Source: Marinobacterium iners DSM 11526 (GTDB lineage: Bacteria; Pseudomonadota; Gammaproteobacteria; Pseudomonadales; Balneatricaceae). Taken from it: a stretch of DNA of 64,000 nucleotides. How positions within the stretch are numbered: the first letter of the stretch is position 1; each line of letters opens with the position of its first letter. Shown one piece after another: positions 21,455-29,206 of the stretch. The translations under genes were made by a program, and so were the position numbers. The DNA lies in NCBI RefSeq assembly GCF_900107855.1, contig NZ_FNRJ01000003.1, forward strand, positions 62,001 through 126,000. The letters are read 5' to 3'. The notes beneath the pieces were generated by a model. It saw only the letters and a list, made by a program, of their open reading frames with translations, made no database searches and was not told the origin of the DNA.

Positions 21455-21901
21455 ATGACAATCATAAACTTTACTCCGGTCCCTGCACTGATCGGCGGGG
21501 CCTTAATCGGCTTCTCGGCTGCTTTTCTGTTGCTTGCAAAAGGCCGGGTGGCCGGCATTTCCGGAATTGCCGGCGGTATTATCTATCCCGAGTCCCGTGA
21601 TGATATTGGCTGGCGTGTCGTGTTCATTCTTGGGTTGATTCTGGGAGGCTTCCTCTATCAGTGGTCAGGGTTGGGTGCTGGTGTGCAGCATATAGCAGCG
21701 GTTGCTGACAAGCCTGTGCTGATTATTGCGGGCCTGCTTGTGGGAATTGGTACACAGATCGGTACGGGCTGCACCAGCGGTCATGGTATTTGTGGTCTTG
21801 CGCGCCGCAGTCCGCGTTCTTTGGTGGCTACTTTTTGTTTTATGGGTAGTGCGATTGTAACCGTGTATGTTGTGCGTCACCTTATGGGAGGTGCAGCATG
21901 A
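21455..21901 (+). CDS. YeeE/YedE-family sulfur transporter, first half
   Basis: A 148-residue membrane protein with four to five hydrophobic segments, half the size of E. coli YeeE (TsuA). The key motif G-T-G-C-T-S-G-H-G-I-C-G-L-A-R (about residues 104-118) holds the cysteine that in TsuA passes thiosulfate along the pore. These half-size proteins come in pairs (often called PmpA/PmpB) that together make one transporter-like unit. The stop overlaps the partner's ATG as ATGA. Substrate is inferred to be a thiosulfate-like sulfur anion. Confidence 0.88.
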   Translation: MTIINFTPVPALIGGALIGFSAAFLLLAKGRVAGISGIAGGIIYPESRDDIGWRVVFILGLILGGFLYQWSGLGAGVQHIAAVADKPVLIIAGLLVGIGTQIGTGCTSGHGICGLARRSPRSLVATFCFMGSAIVTVYVVRHLMGGAA

Positions 21902-22329
21902 GTCAGTCCATGAAACAACTGCTGGCCGCACTTGCTGCCGGTGCGCTATTCGGCTTTGGTCTTGGCTTGTCACAAATGATTGATCCCGCCAAGGTGACAA
22001 ACTTTCTTGATCTGTTGGGCAGCTGGGACCCGTCTCTGGCATTCGTGATGGCTGGCGGTTTGCTGGTTAATGCGTTGCTGACGCCACTGATTTTGAAACA
22101 AAAGCGCCCGCTTCTGGCTGAATTTTTCAGGCTTCCAACCAAGGCTGAGGTTGATAAGCGTCTCGTTATTGGCGGTGTTGTGTTTGGTGTGGGTTGGGGG
22201 CTTGCAGGGTACTGTCCCGGGCCGATGATTACATCATTGAGTTTTGCTGACAGCGACATTCTGACAGTCGTGATTGCGTTTGTGGTGGGTACATTCGCTG
22301 CTCGTTGGGTTCTTCACCGAATCTCTTAA
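21898..22329 (+). CDS. YeeE/YedE-family sulfur transporter, second half
   Basis: A 143-residue membrane protein pairing with the gene before it. It has an N-terminal segment with A-L-F-G-F-G-L-G-L-S-Q-M, the M-I-D-P-A-K-V stretch, and the second pore motif V-G-W-G-L-A-G-Y-C-P-G-P, whose cysteine matches the other half-channel of YeeE. The four-base overlap suggests equal synthesis of both halves. It is convergent with the GGDEF-EAL gene, only six bases separating the stops and no terminator visible between. Confidence 0.88.
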   Translation: MSQSMKQLLAALAAGALFGFGLGLSQMIDPAKVTNFLDLLGSWDPSLAFVMAGGLLVNALLTPLILKQKRPLLAEFFRLPTKAEVDKRLVIGGVVFGVGWGLAGYCPGPMITSLSFADSDILTVVIAFVVGTFAARWVLHRIS

Positions 22330-22335
22330 TATCCA

Positions 22336-24657
22336 TTATGCCGTGCCGGTCTGGTTCTCGCGGAGCATCTCCATCAGTTCCAGTGCCGGCATAGGTTTAC
22401 CATATAAATAGCCCTGTGCGTGCGGGCATCCAGCCTGCAGAAGCAGTTTCTTCTGCTCTTCGGTTTCAACTCCTTCTGCGATAAGCTCCAGGTCCAGTTT
22501 ATTTGCCAGTGCTATGATGGCTTCGATAATGGCAAGATCGTTGGGATCCATTGCTGAGTTTCGGACAAACGATTGGTCGATTTTCAGCCGGCATACCGGC
22601 AGTCGTTTGAGGTAGGTCAGTGATGAGTATCCGGTGCCAAAATCATCGATCGACAACAGTATTCCCATTTCCTTAAGCTGTTTCAGGGTTGGCACGGTTC
22701 TGGCCGTGTCCTGCATAATAAAGCCCTCGGTTACCTCCAGTTCAAGCCATTGTGGTTTACAACCAGTCTGATGTAGCACGTTTTGAACGGATTCAACCAA
22801 GTCAGCTTCGTGAATCTGTGCCCCCGCCAGGTTTACGGAGACCCTTCCTGGGTTGAAGCCAGCACGATACCACTCGACTTGTTGCTGACAGGCTTGTCGC
22901 ATGACCTCGTTGCCCAGATCAATAATCAGCCGGGTTTCCTCGGCAATCGGAATGAATGCGCCAGGCATCAGGAGCCCCTTTTCCGGGTGTTGCCAGCGTA
23001 CCAGTGCTTCGGTGCCTGTTATGCGGCCATTGCGCATATCGACCTGAGGTTGGAAATATACCCGCAGCTCCCCTTTTTGCAGTGCTTGTTTCAGCCCTGC
23101 TTCAACTTCCATGCGTTGCAGTGCCTGATCACTGAGGCTGGTATGAAAGTGCTGATACTGTCCGCCACCCATTTTCTTGGCCAGGTACATGGCGAGATCA
23201 CTGTTGCGTGTCAATGCTTGAGCGGTATTGCCATCCTGTGGACATCGCGTGACTCCGATGCTGGCCCTAACGTCCAGATGATGCCCATGTTTGATGACGG
23301 GATCTGACAGGGCGGCCACAACTCGTGGCAGAAGTTCGTCTTCATGTCGGGTATCGGCACTGGCAGCCAACATCAGGAAAAATTCGTCACCGCCGTGCCG
23401 GAAAAGACGATCCCCCTTTCCAAGCAAAGCCTTAAGACGGTTAGCCACGGTGATCAGTACCTTATCCCCGACAGGGTGTCCAAGGCTGTCATTGATCAGC
23501 TTGAAGCGGTCCAGATCAATATACGCCAAAGTGAAGTTTAGACAGTCGTGTACCGCTTGGCTGATGGCAAGTTCTAGCTGCTGATTGAAATTAAAACGGT
23601 TAGGCAATCCAGTCAGTGAATCGTGGTTGGCCTCATACTCAAACCGGTCGCGTTGTTCCTGCAACCCAAGTTGTGCCAATTCCAGTGCGCGCGTGCGTTC
23701 ATCAAAGGCTTCCGCAAGTGCTTCAAGTTCATCATGGGTCCCAAGAGGCGCGCAGGTTGCGCGGCGGGTATCCTTTACTCTGCGATACAGTTCGATTGTG
23801 GGTGAGGCTATCCCCTGCCCAATCCATGCTGCCAGTATGGCGGCTATCAAGGTTAGAATAATGCCAATGCCGACGAAGCGAGTTACAGTCGTTGTGATGA
23901 CTGACTCGAATTGGGATTCAGGAATGCCGGCTTCAAGGCTTAAATCAAGTTGCTGTAGTAGTGGTGTGTCCACTGTCGGTCGCTGTCGACTGCTGATGTA
24001 ATTGATGGTTTCATCATGGCCCAGGGTCAACACTGAAGTGTCTTCTGTATAGAGCCTCAGGAATCCTTCGTTTTCCCTAAAGGCATGACGTGCGACCAGT
24101 TCACGCAGGTCGAAGGCTGCCAACAGTGCGCCCTGAGTTGTGTCGTAGAACTTGATTGGCGCAATGACTGTCATTTGTCGGTTGGCAGGGTCGTTATAGA
24201 GCGCAATTTCCCCCATCGAGAGAGCGGCTCTCAATTCTGTTGACTGGTTAAACTCAGGCAGCCAGTGTTCGTCCTGATATACCGGCTGTCCATCAAAATC
24301 CAGCAGGGCTGCCGAGCGCATGGACGTCCCTGAAGAGAAGTTTGCCAACAATGGTGGTAAATCGGTGGTGCGAGCCTGACTGTCAATTAGCCCATTCACC
24401 ATGAAAGGGTTTTCCGCCAGTCTTGCGGTACCCTCAACCAGATAGGCGATACGGTTTTCCAGCTGGATCAACGACGAGTGAGCGCTTTCCCCTAGCCCTT
24501 TGTATGCCTGCTGATATAGCTCATTGCGTAAAATGTAGGCAACCGTGAAAGTGACGATGAGCATAACCAGCGCCACAAAGCCGCATATTGTCAGTGTCAG
24601 TTTGCGCTGAAGGCTGCGGTAATGCTTGGGTGGCTGGTCAGAGGTCAATAACTTCAT
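22336..24657 (-). CDS. Membrane GGDEF-EAL cyclic-di-GMP enzyme
   Basis: A 773-residue inner-membrane protein: membrane segment about 20-42, periplasmic sensor about 45-255, second membrane segment about 257-280, HAMP-like linker to about 325, GGDEF about 335-500, EAL about 515-765. The cyclase motif is intact (R-H-G-G-D-E-F) but the inhibitory I-site RxxD is degenerate (G-K-G-D). The EAL domain keeps E-A-L-V-R-W, the E in L-E-V-T-E, D-D-F-G-T-G-Y-S-S, the lysine in L-K-I-D and A-E-G-V-E, so it should hydrolyse c-di-GMP. Both activities are possible. Its start overlaps the preceding solute-binding fusion gene by four bases, so the two are made together. Confidence 0.93.
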   Translation of the reverse strand: MKLLTSDQPPKHYRSLQRKLTLTICGFVALVMLIVTFTVAYILRNELYQQAYKGLGESAHSSLIQLENRIAYLVEGTARLAENPFMVNGLIDSQARTTDLPPLLANFSSGTSMRSAALLDFDGQPVYQDEHWLPEFNQSTELRAALSMGEIALYNDPANRQMTVIAPIKFYDTTQGALLAAFDLRELVARHAFRENEGFLRLYTEDTSVLTLGHDETINYISSRQRPTVDTPLLQQLDLSLEAGIPESQFESVITTTVTRFVGIGIILTLIAAILAAWIGQGIASPTIELYRRVKDTRRATCAPLGTHDELEALAEAFDERTRALELAQLGLQEQRDRFEYEANHDSLTGLPNRFNFNQQLELAISQAVHDCLNFTLAYIDLDRFKLINDSLGHPVGDKVLITVANRLKALLGKGDRLFRHGGDEFFLMLAASADTRHEDELLPRVVAALSDPVIKHGHHLDVRASIGVTRCPQDGNTAQALTRNSDLAMYLAKKMGGGQYQHFHTSLSDQALQRMEVEAGLKQALQKGELRVYFQPQVDMRNGRITGTEALVRWQHPEKGLLMPGAFIPIAEETRLIIDLGNEVMRQACQQQVEWYRAGFNPGRVSVNLAGAQIHEADLVESVQNVLHQTGCKPQWLELEVTEGFIMQDTARTVPTLKQLKEMGILLSIDDFGTGYSSLTYLKRLPVCRLKIDQSFVRNSAMDPNDLAIIEAIIALANKLDLELIAEGVETEEQKKLLLQAGCPHAQGYLYGKPMPALELMEMLRENQTGTA

Positions 24658-26720
24658 AGTGTCCCTCTTTTGCTACCGGTTTGCCGATAGGCTGGCGCCA
24701 GGTGCAGCCTGAATTGCCCCGGCTGGTCAGGAGCTGTCGTTGAAAAATCCGATGCCACTCGTTCGCATGGTACTGCAGCGTTAAGTGCCTGCTTGATATT
24801 GTCGCTCAGTCCGGCCTCACACCGTGTTGCCGCGAACAGCAATATCCAGGCTGCGTCGTGTGACTGCAAAAGCGTTGAAACTGACGCTGGTTCGTTGCCG
24901 TAACGGTCAGTATATGCCGCTATGATATCGTCTGTTGTATTTCCATGATGCCAGCTCTGCAGGCTGAGTAGATTGGGGGCGTTCTCCGAAACTGTCCAGT
25001 CTATTGCTGAGATCAGAAGGGGTATATCAGACTGATCTTCGTACCATTCCAGGCTTTGTTCAAGCAGCTGGCTGTGTAGTACCAGAATAATAGCGTCTGT
25101 TGGTGTATTTTGTTGGATTTTAAGCTGTTGGACCAATGGCTTTGTTGGGTCAAGCTTGATCTTTGATTGGACCTCAAGGCCTGCTTTGATTGCCTCGGTT
25201 TCTATTGCGACAGCAAGATCTTCACTCAGAGCTGTCGCTTCTGTCAGCAGCTGTACTGTGCTGATATTTCGCTGATTTAGCTCCTGTCCCAACTGTTTGG
25301 CTATCTGGAATGATGATGGTGCAAGGTTGATCAGGCGACTGTTGGCTGAAAATAGCTCGGTGTGGTTCATCCATGGATTGAGTATGGGTGGCGATGCTTC
25401 TGTCGCCATATGTTGGGTCTGGAAAGAGAGTGGTCCTACTCCCGCAATAATCCCGATCATGGAGGGTTGGCGAGCAAAGTCATCCAGTGTTCGGTTTGAG
25501 CGTCCGGTGAGGTTGCGATTGTCACGGGTTATTACTCGAATATCCGAGATCAGAGTTGGATCTGCCCTGCGAAGCCGCTCGACGGCCAGCTCTGCACCGC
25601 GCTTGATTTCCAGGCCAAGCTTGGGCGACACGGTGCTCAGATCAGTGTCTACGCCGATAAGCCAGCGATTCTCCTGAGGGTGCTGCAATGTGGCGTATTC
25701 GTGAGTGTACGCAAGGATGTCGGCGCCGATGGTGGTTTCAAAGCGATCAGCAAGTGGTTGTACAGCGCGCTGAAACTGTATTCGTTCAGACCTGCTCAGT
25801 CGATGAATGTGGATGCCTGTGGCTGCAATTTCGGCCAAAAATTCGCTTTCCTGTCGTTCAGTCTCGGCGCGTTGCCAAGGTGTGATCGCGCGTGCCGTTT
25901 CAATCAGAAGGGTTTGCAGGTGTCCCGGTAGTTGGTTAAAGCGTTTTCCGCTGATGGCAAATATATAGGCCAGATACGCGTGCTCGCTCAGGGTTAGATC
26001 GGTTTGTGCTTCGTGTATGCCCATACTGTGAATCGCCACCAGAGGGTTTTCCTGACCATCCACTACGCCGTCAAGAAGTGCCTGGCGCGTTTCGTGAAAG
26101 TCGATCGGTACCGCTTCTGCGCCCATGAGGTTGAATTGATCACGCAGCAGACGGCTTTTCATGATTCTGATGTTGAGGCCCGTAAAATCTGAAGGTTTCT
26201 TCAACGGCCGGTTAGCAGTGAAATGTTTGAATCCATTACCCCAAAAAGTTACGCCAACCATATTGATTTTATTCATTTTTTCCAAAAGAAGCCGCCCGGG
26301 TTCGCCGTCCAGCATTGCATACATGTCTTCTCGCGCAGGCAGGAGGAAGGGCATGTCGGCGTATTGCATCTCAGGCAGTGCCACGCTGAGTTTGGCGGAG
26401 GGAATCAGTAGGAGGTCAAGCTCGCCGCGTCGGGCCATTTCCAGCATCTGGTGGTCATTTCCGAGGGCCTGATTGGGGAAGAGCTGGATTTCAATACGCC
26501 CTTCTGTCTGGCGTTCGATCTCTTCCTTGAAGCGCATGGCTGCCAGATGGAGTGCGCTGCGTTCGGGAATGTTGTAGCCAAAGCGCAATACTTGGCTGCC
26601 AAGGCTGTTTTCTGCTTGCCTCTGTTGAACGGTGGTGTCTTGGTCGAACGGCCATACGACCAGCAATATCAGGATGAGCAGCAGTATAGCTACAGCAAGC
26701 AGGCTAAGGAGGTGCTTCAT
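24654..26720 (-). CDS. Fusion of TRAP-type (DctP) and type 1 periplasmic solute-binding domains
   Basis: A 688-residue protein with an N-terminal hydrophobic anchor (about 5-24) that lacks an obvious signal cleavage site or lipobox. Residues about 47-345 are a DctP-type solute-binding domain (L-R-F-G-Y-N-I-P-E, E-I-E-R-Q-T-E-G-R-I-E-I-Q-L-F-P, F-K-H-F-T-A-N-R-P, D-G-V-V-D-G-Q-E-N-P). Residues about 350-675 resemble a type 1 (branched-chain amino acid/LivJ-like) binding domain (W-L-I-G-V-D-T-D-L-S, I-K-R-G-A-E-L-A-V-E, G-I-I-A-G-V-G-P-L-S). No TRAP permease genes are near. The ATGA overlap with the GGDEF-EAL gene suggests that it is a sensor partner instead. AAGG precedes the ATG by eight bases. 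Confidence 0.85.
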   Translation of the reverse strand: MKHLLSLLAVAILLLILILLVVWPFDQDTTVQQRQAENSLGSQVLRFGYNIPERSALHLAAMRFKEEIERQTEGRIEIQLFPNQALGNDHQMLEMARRGELDLLLIPSAKLSVALPEMQYADMPFLLPAREDMYAMLDGEPGRLLLEKMNKINMVGVTFWGNGFKHFTANRPLKKPSDFTGLNIRIMKSRLLRDQFNLMGAEAVPIDFHETRQALLDGVVDGQENPLVAIHSMGIHEAQTDLTLSEHAYLAYIFAISGKRFNQLPGHLQTLLIETARAITPWQRAETERQESEFLAEIAATGIHIHRLSRSERIQFQRAVQPLADRFETTIGADILAYTHEYATLQHPQENRWLIGVDTDLSTVSPKLGLEIKRGAELAVERLRRADPTLISDIRVITRDNRNLTGRSNRTLDDFARQPSMIGIIAGVGPLSFQTQHMATEASPPILNPWMNHTELFSANSRLINLAPSSFQIAKQLGQELNQRNISTVQLLTEATALSEDLAVAIETEAIKAGLEVQSKIKLDPTKPLVQQLKIQQNTPTDAIILVLHSQLLEQSLEWYEDQSDIPLLISAIDWTVSENAPNLLSLQSWHHGNTTDDIIAAYTDRYGNEPASVSTLLQSHDAAWILLFAATRCEAGLSDNIKQALNAAVPCERVASDFSTTAPDQPGQFRLHLAPAYRQTGSKRGTL

Positions 26721-26848: not shown

Positions 26849-29206
26849 TTATTCAGCAATCTCTATTCGGTCGCGACCATTATGCTTTGCTGTATATACG
26901 GCCTTGTCAGCCCGGCCCAGTGGCGCATCCACTTCATGATCCGCTTTAGTGATGACGGTTACACCGATACTTGTAGTAACGTGCAATGAGTGAATGTCTG
27001 CAAAACTGATTGCGGCTATGGCCAGTCTCAGTCTCTCAGCTAAAATCTTGGCACCCTCCATGTCTGTGCCTGGCAGGAGGACGGCAAACTCCTCACCTCC
27101 GATGCGGCCAATAATATCGATCTGGCGCATTTGGGCAGCAGCCGTATCTGCGAAGGCTTTGAGTACGCGGTCACCAGTCGCGTGGCCAAACTGATCATTA
27201 ACCTGCTTGAAGTGGTCCAGATCTATCATCATCAGGCCGCAGTGCGTATTAAATCTGACCGCCCTCGCCCTCTCCTGCTCCAGGCGTTCCATGAAATAGC
27301 GCCGATTGGCGAGTCCAGTCAGTGCATCACTTGTAGCCAGTCGATGTAGTTCTTGTTCACGCAGTTTCTGGCTTGTAATGTCCTGCACCATTCCGGTGGC
27401 CCGTAAAATTCCGGTTTCATCGTGCTCGAAATCAGCCATTTCACGTACCCAGCGGACTTCTCCGCCGGCAACAACACGGTGCTCAAGGTTGTAACGACCG
27501 CCTTGTATGGCATTGTGCCAAGTGCTGTCGACGAGTTCGCGGTCGTCCGGGTGGACTCGGCTGATAAACAGAGCATAGTCTGGTGTTTGCTCCGGTGTAA
27601 CCGAAAAAATGCGGTAGGTTTCTTCTGACCAGGTAAGTGACTGATCAGCAAAGTGATATTCCCAGCTGCCTACTGCGCCTATTCGTTGTGCCCTTCTCAA
27701 GCTGCGTTCACTTTCTTTAAGAGCTTCTTCAGCGCGGTGCTGCGCTGTAATATCAAGTAATACCCCATTCAGCATCTGCACACCATCTACAGAGCGCGAT
27801 GCGCGGCACCTGTCTTCGATCCAGCGCCACTGGCCGTTGTTGTGCTGCAGTCGATAACGCCTGCGAATGCCTTTTGTCGGCCATTGCGTCCAATCCAGCG
27901 TCTGGCGAACATACTCGCGATCGTGTGGATGAATATGCTCGACCCACCAGTGGTCGTCCCCAATAATATGTTCTGGATGATAGCCAAGTAGATGTGTGCA
28001 GTTGGGTGATATGTAGTCAAGTGAAGTGCCGGGAGTGCGAAGGCTGTAGGTAACGACAGGAGAATCGCTCAGCAGACTGGTGAGTTGCAGCTGTGCCTGC
28101 TCCGCCTCCGCGGCGGCTGCATTCACGCGCTGTTGCATCATTTCTCTCAGCCGGCGCAGCAAAAGCAAAAGCAGCAGCTGGGTCAGCATATAGGCCCCTG
28201 CTGTAATCAGAATCAGAAGTTGCTGAGCGCGCCGCTCTTCATGCCAGAGTTCGGTTATATCCTGCCAGCTGATGATAATACCAGGAGGTGGCAGGGCTGA
28301 GTTCTCTGTCTGACTGCTGTAATCCTGTAGTGGGAAGCGTGCCAGACTGTATACACGGTCTTCCCAGTTCAATATCTGAACACTGCCCTGCTGACTTAGC
28401 TCATCAAATGAAAGTTTTGAGCGCTGCATCCATTGGATGACGCGATCTGAGGTTGTGGCTTCTATGTAACAATCACAGGCTGATACAGGTTCTGGCCTGA
28501 ACTCGTCCCAGACGGTTTGCTCAACATCCTTTCGATTTAGCAGCAGGGTCAGTTCGGCATCCAGCATGGGTGCCAGCCGGCTCAATACACTGTCAACCGA
28601 AGCGCCTGCCTCGAGTGCTCCGACATGCGCCAGCGTTCCATCCTGGCGGGTGTACCACACAGGCGTGACACCACGAATACCAGAATAAACGCGTCCAATT
28701 TCAAAGCCGGTCTGAGACTTGCCTGTGTGATTGGTGTTTACAATGATGGGGCGGATGGATGTAAGATCGTCGCCAAAGTGATCGGGGGCATGGACGCGCA
28801 GATAGGATTTTGCCGGTGGCAGGTGGAAGTGAAGCTGGCGCAGTGCATATTGCTCCTGCATCTGCCGCCACGCAGGTGCCACTCGATCAAACAGGGCCTG
28901 TCGGAGCCGAGCTGCTTCTTCACCGCCCTTGCCTCCTCCTTCTATCACGACCATGCGAGAGCCATGGTAGAAAAGCTCCTGCACCACCGGGTCGGCCGCC
29001 ACCATGGAGGCCAGCAATATCATTTTGTTTTCCTGCTCGTGCAATGTCAGCTCAAAACTTTGTTGCAATGAGTCAGCCTTGCGATCCAGCTGTTGCTGAA
29101 ACAGATTCTGGCGTTCATTCAAACTGTAGACTGTCATGCCAAAGAAGATCAGCAGCAATAAAAGGCTGGAGGTGATCAGAAGTGCGCGAAAAGAGATGGT
29201 TCGCAT
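26849..29206 (-). CDS. Diguanylate cyclase with periplasmic Cache-like sensor and two PAS domains
   Basis: A 785-residue protein: membrane segment about 9-30, periplasmic dCache_3-like sensor about 31-325 (L-H-F-H-L-P-P-A-K-S-Y-L-R-V-H and H-T-G-K-S-Q-T-G-F-E), second membrane segment about 330-352, two PAS domains with PAC ends (about 375-490 and 505-615), then GGDEF about 625-785. The active site reads G-G-E-E-F (about residue 702) and the inhibitory I-site R-Q-I-D stands five residues before it, so product inhibition is expected. There is no EAL domain. It lies 128 bases upstream of the fusion binding-protein gene, same strand, and may be part of the same system. Confidence 0.93.
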   Translation of the reverse strand: MRTISFRALLITSSLLLLLIFFGMTVYSLNERQNLFQQQLDRKADSLQQSFELTLHEQENKMILLASMVAADPVVQELFYHGSRMVVIEGGGKGGEEAARLRQALFDRVAPAWRQMQEQYALRQLHFHLPPAKSYLRVHAPDHFGDDLTSIRPIIVNTNHTGKSQTGFEIGRVYSGIRGVTPVWYTRQDGTLAHVGALEAGASVDSVLSRLAPMLDAELTLLLNRKDVEQTVWDEFRPEPVSACDCYIEATTSDRVIQWMQRSKLSFDELSQQGSVQILNWEDRVYSLARFPLQDYSSQTENSALPPPGIIISWQDITELWHEERRAQQLLILITAGAYMLTQLLLLLLLRRLREMMQQRVNAAAAEAEQAQLQLTSLLSDSPVVTYSLRTPGTSLDYISPNCTHLLGYHPEHIIGDDHWWVEHIHPHDREYVRQTLDWTQWPTKGIRRRYRLQHNNGQWRWIEDRCRASRSVDGVQMLNGVLLDITAQHRAEEALKESERSLRRAQRIGAVGSWEYHFADQSLTWSEETYRIFSVTPEQTPDYALFISRVHPDDRELVDSTWHNAIQGGRYNLEHRVVAGGEVRWVREMADFEHDETGILRATGMVQDITSQKLREQELHRLATSDALTGLANRRYFMERLEQERARAVRFNTHCGLMMIDLDHFKQVNDQFGHATGDRVLKAFADTAAAQMRQIDIIGRIGGEEFAVLLPGTDMEGAKILAERLRLAIAAISFADIHSLHVTTSIGVTVITKADHEVDAPLGRADKAVYTAKHNGRDRIEIAE

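Follow-up and report, generated by a model that had tools for sequence, protein, structure and literature searches.

LuxP and TorT are type 1 binding proteins that act on membrane sensors, each a single domain without a DctP part and each controlling a hybrid histidine kinase (LuxQ and TorS, respectively). To our knowledge, the binding proteins that signal to membrane receptors have been characterised as single domains. For the NspS-MbaA pair of Vibrio cholerae and Sinorhizobium meliloti, the excerpted text of PMC9993111 describes overlapping genes for a binding protein and for a membrane-bound GGDEF-EAL protein whose transmembrane segments enclose a periplasmic domain. NspS itself is a single PotD-like polyamine-binding protein. 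In RmcA of Pseudomonas aeruginosa, an arginine sensor given in the excerpt of a 2022 review as the only studied case from the PBP clan (PMC8846402), an SBP_bac_3 domain lies inside the signalling protein itself and is tied to c-di-GMP control.

The locus described here resembles NspS-MbaA, as excerpted, in its overlapping genes and adjacent membrane GGDEF-EAL receptor, and RmcA in the tie between a binding-protein domain and c-di-GMP control; it differs from both in that a DctP and a Peripla_BP_6 domain are fused in one anchored protein, separate from the receptor. Because its binding protein comes from other families, the pair is not a member of the NspS-MbaA system. A type 1 fold, the one to which LuxP and TorT belong, is present in it, but fused to DctP. 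The locus lies in a window of 64,000 nucleotides of Marinobacterium iners DSM 11526, the whole stretch of DNA that was analysed, and its features are as follows.

24654..26720, minus strand: fusion gene, 688 aa from an ATG start; anchor, DctP and LivJ-type binding domain
26652..26720, minus strand: N-terminal hydrophobic anchor, residues 1-23; no lipobox, no AxA-like site
25722..26591, minus strand: DctP (TRAP solute-binding) domain, residues 44-333; K110, R185 and N225 putatively acid-binding
24726..25673, minus strand: LivJ-like type 1 binding domain, residues 350-665; diverged in the window's branch
24654..24657, minus strand: overlap of 4 bases, ATGA, fusion-gene stop and partner start
22336..24657, minus strand: partner gene, 773 aa; TM-dCache-like-TM-GGDEF-EAL receptor
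23773..24612, minus strand: partner TM-dCache-like-TM region, residues 16-295; homologous among the family's partners
23164..23631, minus strand: partner GGDEF domain, residues 343-498; motif intact, no RxxD at the I-site
22393..23094, minus strand: partner EAL domain, residues 522-755; EALVRW, DDFGTG, KIDQSF, EGVET

We read the fusion protein, with a probability of about 0.8, as a ligand receptor that is tethered to the membrane, faces the periplasm and belongs to a signalling unit of two genes, a reading that draws on sequence comparison and predicted structures; most likely its role is to detect an acidic nutrient outside the cell, not to import anything. By analogy, we read the pair as working like NspS-MbaA or LuxP-LuxQ.

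An earlier note, made from the sequence alone, had claimed two solute-binding folds in one frame, and this was borne out: both Pfam matches lie above cut-off, and both halves fold with fair to high confidence. The region 24654-26720 on the minus strand is a single uninterrupted frame. DctP (PF03480) matches residues 47-328 at E 1.8e-75, with 254 bits against a cut-off of 23.4; Peripla_BP_6 (PF13458) matches residues 355-665 at E 5.2e-8, its 33.4 bits standing barely above the cut-off of 31.7, and ANF_receptor matches residues 376-559 (E 4.9e-8). Only DctP and type 1 binding-protein families, and no PotD-like family, were found with Pfam at E 0.001. The DctP half passes the NCBI cut-off for NCBIfam TRAP binding-subunit models, so that automatic annotation would likely label the window protein a transport protein; the second half gave no NCBIfam match. 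An AlphaFold2 model of the fusion protein (71 sequences) has a mean pLDDT of 87.6 and a pTM of 0.86 and contains two binding-protein domains, so that the structure prediction proposed in the earlier note yielded binding-protein folds for both halves. In ten-residue blocks, pLDDT is 95-98 in the DctP half and mostly 75-96 in the LivJ half, where the weak blocks are 431-440 (59), 451-460 (67), 571-580 (67) and those from 651 on (34-73). Foldseek matched the first half to the DctP proteins PA5167, 7bbr, 4ovs and PA0884 (TM by target length 0.82-0.88; PA0884, or IctP, and PA5167, or DctP, at 0.87-0.88). Since all 50 matches listed by Foldseek for the fusion protein are DctP-type, the LivJ half was assigned with a profile built from the window protein and 35 relatives, which matched solved Leu/Ile/Val-binding proteins, among them 4mpt at E 1.3e-43 and 4gnr at 2.2e-36.

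The fast evolution of the LivJ half in the window's branch could be taken to mean that the fusion is an assembly error or a decaying gene, but that reading is given next to no weight: the frame is intact in a second genome of the same species and in 70 aligned relatives, and a dN/dS of 0.23 for the LivJ half in the same-species pair implies that it is still constrained. The frameshift that the earlier note named as a possible objection is excluded, and an assembly artefact was rejected, on the conservation of the frame and on the presence of both domains, DctP and Peripla_BP_6 (the latter with E no higher than 0.001), in all 67 members examined with Pfam, the window protein and 66 others. The others came from a genome-collection scan with 127 confirmed relatives, 80 of which were kept. 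The window protein and 70 of the 80 were aligned (71 sequences), leaving out L045, L069, L073, L081, L085, L096, L098, L104, L107 and L112 for contig-end cuts, frames open at a contig start, or short or broken frames; a size limit brought the Pfam set to 67 of the 71 (without L091, L095, L097 and L109). Short or broken fusion frames occur in three of the 80 loci (L081, L096, L098). Record titles of the relatives name gamma- and betaproteobacteria, Magnetococcales, Campylobacterota, Nitrospirota, SAR324, Desulfobulbaceae and others, with many metagenome bins; several of the family's hosts bear sulfur-oxidiser names.

The host genome has one full-length fusion copy. Ten of 116 genomes of its taxonomic family, its own included, match at E 1e-75 or better, and among the eight entries listed for its genus matches are confined to its own genome and one of the same species. 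The latter keeps the fusion frame at 97% identity, and eight relatives from the host's family stand at 41-46%. Of 398 genomes drawn evenly from the phylum, 26 have fusion matches at E 1e-150 or better, two of which (G227, G306) cover only part of the model. Judged by these comparisons, the two-fold anchored protein is a real and widespread bacterial family. No description of a DctP and Peripla_BP_6 fusion was found in titles and abstract openings among the matches listed, a search that covered open-licence papers; the components are of known kinds, and within that search no account was found of their combination, a fused and tethered fold pair that shares a dCache-type partner and can switch outputs.

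The note's further claim of membrane anchoring without a clear cleavage site also held. Mean Kyte-Doolittle hydropathy of the window anchor is 3.52 over 19 residues, and the median across 71 family members is 2.63; one member (L046), with its frame as called, is without an anchor (0.72). No lipobox was found in any of the 71, and a loose AxA pattern fits 24 of 71, the window protein not among them. An almost identical scan was applied to ordinary DctP proteins, seven of the host genome and seven of its taxonomic family; AxA fits all 14 and hydropathy is 0.99-1.72. As read by this simple rule-based scan, which is not a trained predictor, the high hydropathy, the lack of a lipobox and an AxA pattern mostly absent where the controls have it in 14 of 14 support a signal anchor rather than a cleaved signal.

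The origin of both folds in transport families, and ten further DctP-like matches in the host genome, by which TRAP systems are likely present, speak for the fusion protein as a transport component, serving as binding protein of an unlinked TRAP or ABC permease. Against this, no TRAP or ABC permease, and specifically no linked DctQ/DctM permease of the kind that goes with TRAP membership, was found in 38 window frames (35 of which belong to the 68 frames that reach at least 150 aa), as the earlier note had said of the surroundings, and no recurring permease cluster was found in the 80 family loci. The protein is also anchored and has a dedicated receptor gene. It thus differs from the TRAP binding proteins PA0884 and PA5167 in being fused and anchored, with no TRAP permease found nearby, and from 4mpt and 4gnr in that its second half is tethered behind another binding domain, with no ABC permease found nearby. 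A transport role is accordingly very improbable and was rejected, a permease link being seen neither in the window frames nor in the family loci.

The only solute-transport family matched in the scanned window frames is Sulf_transp, at 21455-21901. It belongs to two small membrane genes (Sulf_transp and DUF6691; 21455-22329, plus strand) that are convergent with the partner gene and end 6 bases from it. On the other side, 128 bases upstream of the fusion gene and on the same strand, lies a gene for a dCache_3-PAS-GGDEF protein of 785 aa with two PAS_3 stretches (26849-29206, minus strand), and the fusion gene is flanked by two c-di-GMP genes. A promoter and terminator scan gave nothing beyond chance. 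Across the 80 loci no clue to the ligand was found in the gene neighbourhood. After the fusion and signalling clusters, the next commonest gene clusters hold 13 and 6 loci; the 13-locus cluster consists of opposite-strand frames at scattered positions, and its listed example overlaps the fusion gene. Kinases, GGDEF proteins and receiver proteins are pooled in the signalling cluster, 26 members of which stand at second place downstream; further signalling genes therefore recur downstream of the partner.

The sensing role claimed in the earlier note was strengthened by the partner, which is a receptor. Of the 80 loci, 75 extend 700 nt or more past the fusion gene, and in 74 of these the gene directly downstream encodes a homologue of the partner's N-terminal region, with a gap of 20 nt or less in 66 of the 74 and the four-base overlap (-4 spacing) in 30; the one miss is L096, a broken fusion frame whose match runs to the contig end. 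These counts are not built in, because the loci were picked by similarity to the fusion protein only. Co-occurrence was also checked independently of the partner's place, by searching the same 398 genomes with the partner N-terminal alignment. Partner matches were found in 27 genomes, 24 of which are among the 26 with the fusion, and in 23 of these 24 the two genes are side by side on one contig; in the other (G322) they are on separate contigs, with the partner fragment beginning at base 1. Two genomes have the fusion and are not in the partner list: G176, with a weak partner match directly beside the fusion, and G306, with the fusion at the end of a 3,729-base contig. Of the three partner genomes without a listed fusion, G231 carries one immediately ahead of the partner, truncated where the contig begins. 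G223 and G274, with a partner and no fusion beside it, are real exceptions (2 of 27), and the partner can therefore stand alone or use something else. Partner-type hybrid kinases without an adjacent fusion gene were seen at L128 (4135-7488) and L129 (1387-5334); these may sense alone or use an unlinked protein, and the former adjoins what looks by eye like a SulP-type transporter.

The window's partner has two membrane helices with a periplasmic domain between them, followed by GGDEF and EAL domains. A model of the periplasmic region (pLDDT 91.2) is dCache-like, and Foldseek matched it to the dCache sensors McpB, DctB and KinD with moderate TM-scores; the LuxQ periplasmic domain (3c30) is among the matches, only at rank 45. 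The Pfam dCache model gave no match to the window's own partner, whose dCache-like fold is suggested by the predicted model and by its relatives, dCache_1 matching 49 of 69 partners. The EAL motifs also include NLAGAQ and EVTE; together with EALVRW, DDFGTG, KIDQSF, EGVET and GGDEF these are motifs that we take to be catalytic signatures. Both synthesis and breakdown of c-di-GMP are possible on this basis. The I-site position reads GKGD and not RxxD.

The earlier note had also asked how often the fusion precedes a GGDEF/EAL gene. This holds for a part of the family: of 69 partners scanned, the window's included, 25 carry GGDEF (24 of those with EAL), whereas 44 carry HisKA and HATPase_c, and the two groups show no overlap in the per-locus list. 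The scan took in the window's partner and 68 of 72 downstream frames, with L046 (split), L087 and L088 (contig-end cut) and L096 (no partner) left out; partners of L059, L090 and L098 were found and stand outside the Pfam-scanned set. Most partners scanned are thus histidine kinases, in contrast to the GGDEF-EAL output of MbaA in its excerpted description. A tree of the DctP half, made by a quick method with SH-aLRT support only, requires at least three changes of output between kinase and c-di-GMP, two of them forced by well-supported branches; the outputs are interchangeable. A two-fold tethered binding protein tied to one receptor domain would, going by record titles, be spread over Pseudomonadota, Campylobacterota, Nitrospirota, Thermodesulfobacteriota and SAR324, and the family offers a direct test of one periplasmic module driving two unrelated outputs. 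One partner (L131, 1800-3215, minus strand) is only 471 aa long, with no output domain evident by eye, and the next gene there encodes, also by eye, a receiver-kinase-receiver protein.

In PA0884, according to the excerpted text of PMC12599236, R169, K94 and N209 bind the proximal carboxylate of the ligand, K41, N213 and Y236 bind its distal carboxylate, and the key residues are conserved in PA5167 except for position 234. The DctP half aligns with PA5167 without gaps over the mapped stretch, and the numbers were carried over by spacing. On this mapping the proximal clamp R169/K94/N209, shared with PA0884 and PA5167, becomes R185/K110/N225, and the distal K41, N213 and Y236 become L57, A229 and Y252, with one of three kept. 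Across the family the acid clamp is nearly invariant (K110 in 71 of 71; R185, the conserved ligand-pairing arginine of DctP proteins, in 71 of 71; N225 in 69), Y252 is found in 70 of the 71 members, 68 have L or M at position 57, and 66 have A at position 229. Two of the three distal contacts of the C4-dicarboxylate subgroup are lost, and a C4-dicarboxylate is disfavoured as ligand on that account. With the acid clamp preserved and the distal one largely lost, we infer a ligand that bears a single acid group and has a tail of lower polarity. A sulfonate is also possible by analogy, since a DctP-type protein binds isethionate in the excerpted report of PMC11668362.

The LivJ half has a different history in the window's branch, that is, the window protein and six Marinobacterium proteins (n=7). 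Outside this branch R465, D470, G427, W450, F464 and several other residues are invariant in 64 of 64 members, and H572 is present in 60 of 64. Within it, the position of R465 reads N, G, G, G, S, S, S, that of D470 reads S, T, N, N, N, S, S, and that of H572 is A, I, L or V; G427 is kept, W450 is found in five of the seven proteins and F464 in six. LivJ identity inside the branch comes to 0.31, where DctP would predict 0.46 (mean z -3.0; 20 of 21 pairs below the line), whereas the partner dCache region shows 0.63 against 0.44 expected (mean z +3.5), these z values coming from pairs that share ancestry and being descriptive. Five other groups tested showed no LivJ drop (mean z +0.57 to +2.18). 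Scored against the rest of the family, the LivJ half of the window protein stands at -3.5 and those of the Marinobacterium proteins at -2.1 to -2.7, with the next-lowest (L072, L060, L063) at -1.2 to -1.3. In the same-species pair, 16 of 311 residues differ in LivJ and 2 of 297 in DctP (Fisher p 0.001), with dN/dS of 0.23 and 0.05, respectively; the contrast of non-synonymous with synonymous changes taken alone is borderline (p 0.054). From the sequences, we read the LivJ half in this branch as relaxed or re-purposed. Outside the branch, DctP and dCache identities of 61 gene pairs correlate at r 0.86, a congruence that shared descent also predicts, as any co-inherited operon gives it.

These results bear on the double ligand sensor proposed in the earlier note, which is partly supported: the two folds, the anchor and the sensing role stood, and ligand binding by both halves is doubtful in the window's branch, where the LivJ half has lost R465 and D470 and the DctP half is kept. 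A true two-input sensor, whose halves bind different ligands for the receptor to integrate, is a variant of the preferred reading. It would suit the residues invariant outside the window's branch and the LivJ fold predicted in the window protein too; the loss of R465, D470 and H572, the low within-branch LivJ identity and the excess of LivJ differences in the same-species pair make it doubtful, though possible. In another variant the DctP half would be the sole ligand binder and the LivJ half a contact module like LuxP or TorT, both of which act on membrane sensors. This would account for a fold that is kept while other residues drift, and it is rather unlikely, in that dCache is over-conserved in the branch and LivJ under-conserved. 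A contact surface should be conserved along with its counterpart, and DctP is therefore indicated as the main dCache contact. In the preferred reading of a tethered receptor, the DctP half would be the ligand-binding part and probably also the part that meets the dCache domain.

The tethered receptor could then work as follows. The DctP half would close on a carboxylate or sulfonate ligand held by R185, K110 and N225, and its closed or open form would touch the dCache domain of the partner, a contact that would shift the balance between c-di-GMP synthesis and breakdown. Net breakdown in one signal state is plausible, because the EAL motifs are intact and the I-site is missing, and either direction is possible. 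The LivJ half of the ancestral protein probably served as a second ligand site or as a contact module, and in the window's branch it has probably lost that function or taken on another. A dCache domain can itself bind ligands directly, and the fusion protein could therefore be a modulator only. More speculatively, the family might be an unnamed, widespread class of tethered coincidence receptors in which an acid TRAP-type site and an amino-acid-type site are both read and a dCache-type partner passes the result to c-di-GMP or to a phosphorelay, with some branches re-purposing the second site.

The same-species pair shows one further feature. The first 250 codons of the partner gene (23908-24657, minus strand) match at every base between the two genomes. 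The 249 codons that follow have 19 base differences, and the LivJ half has 40. Recombination could account for this pattern.
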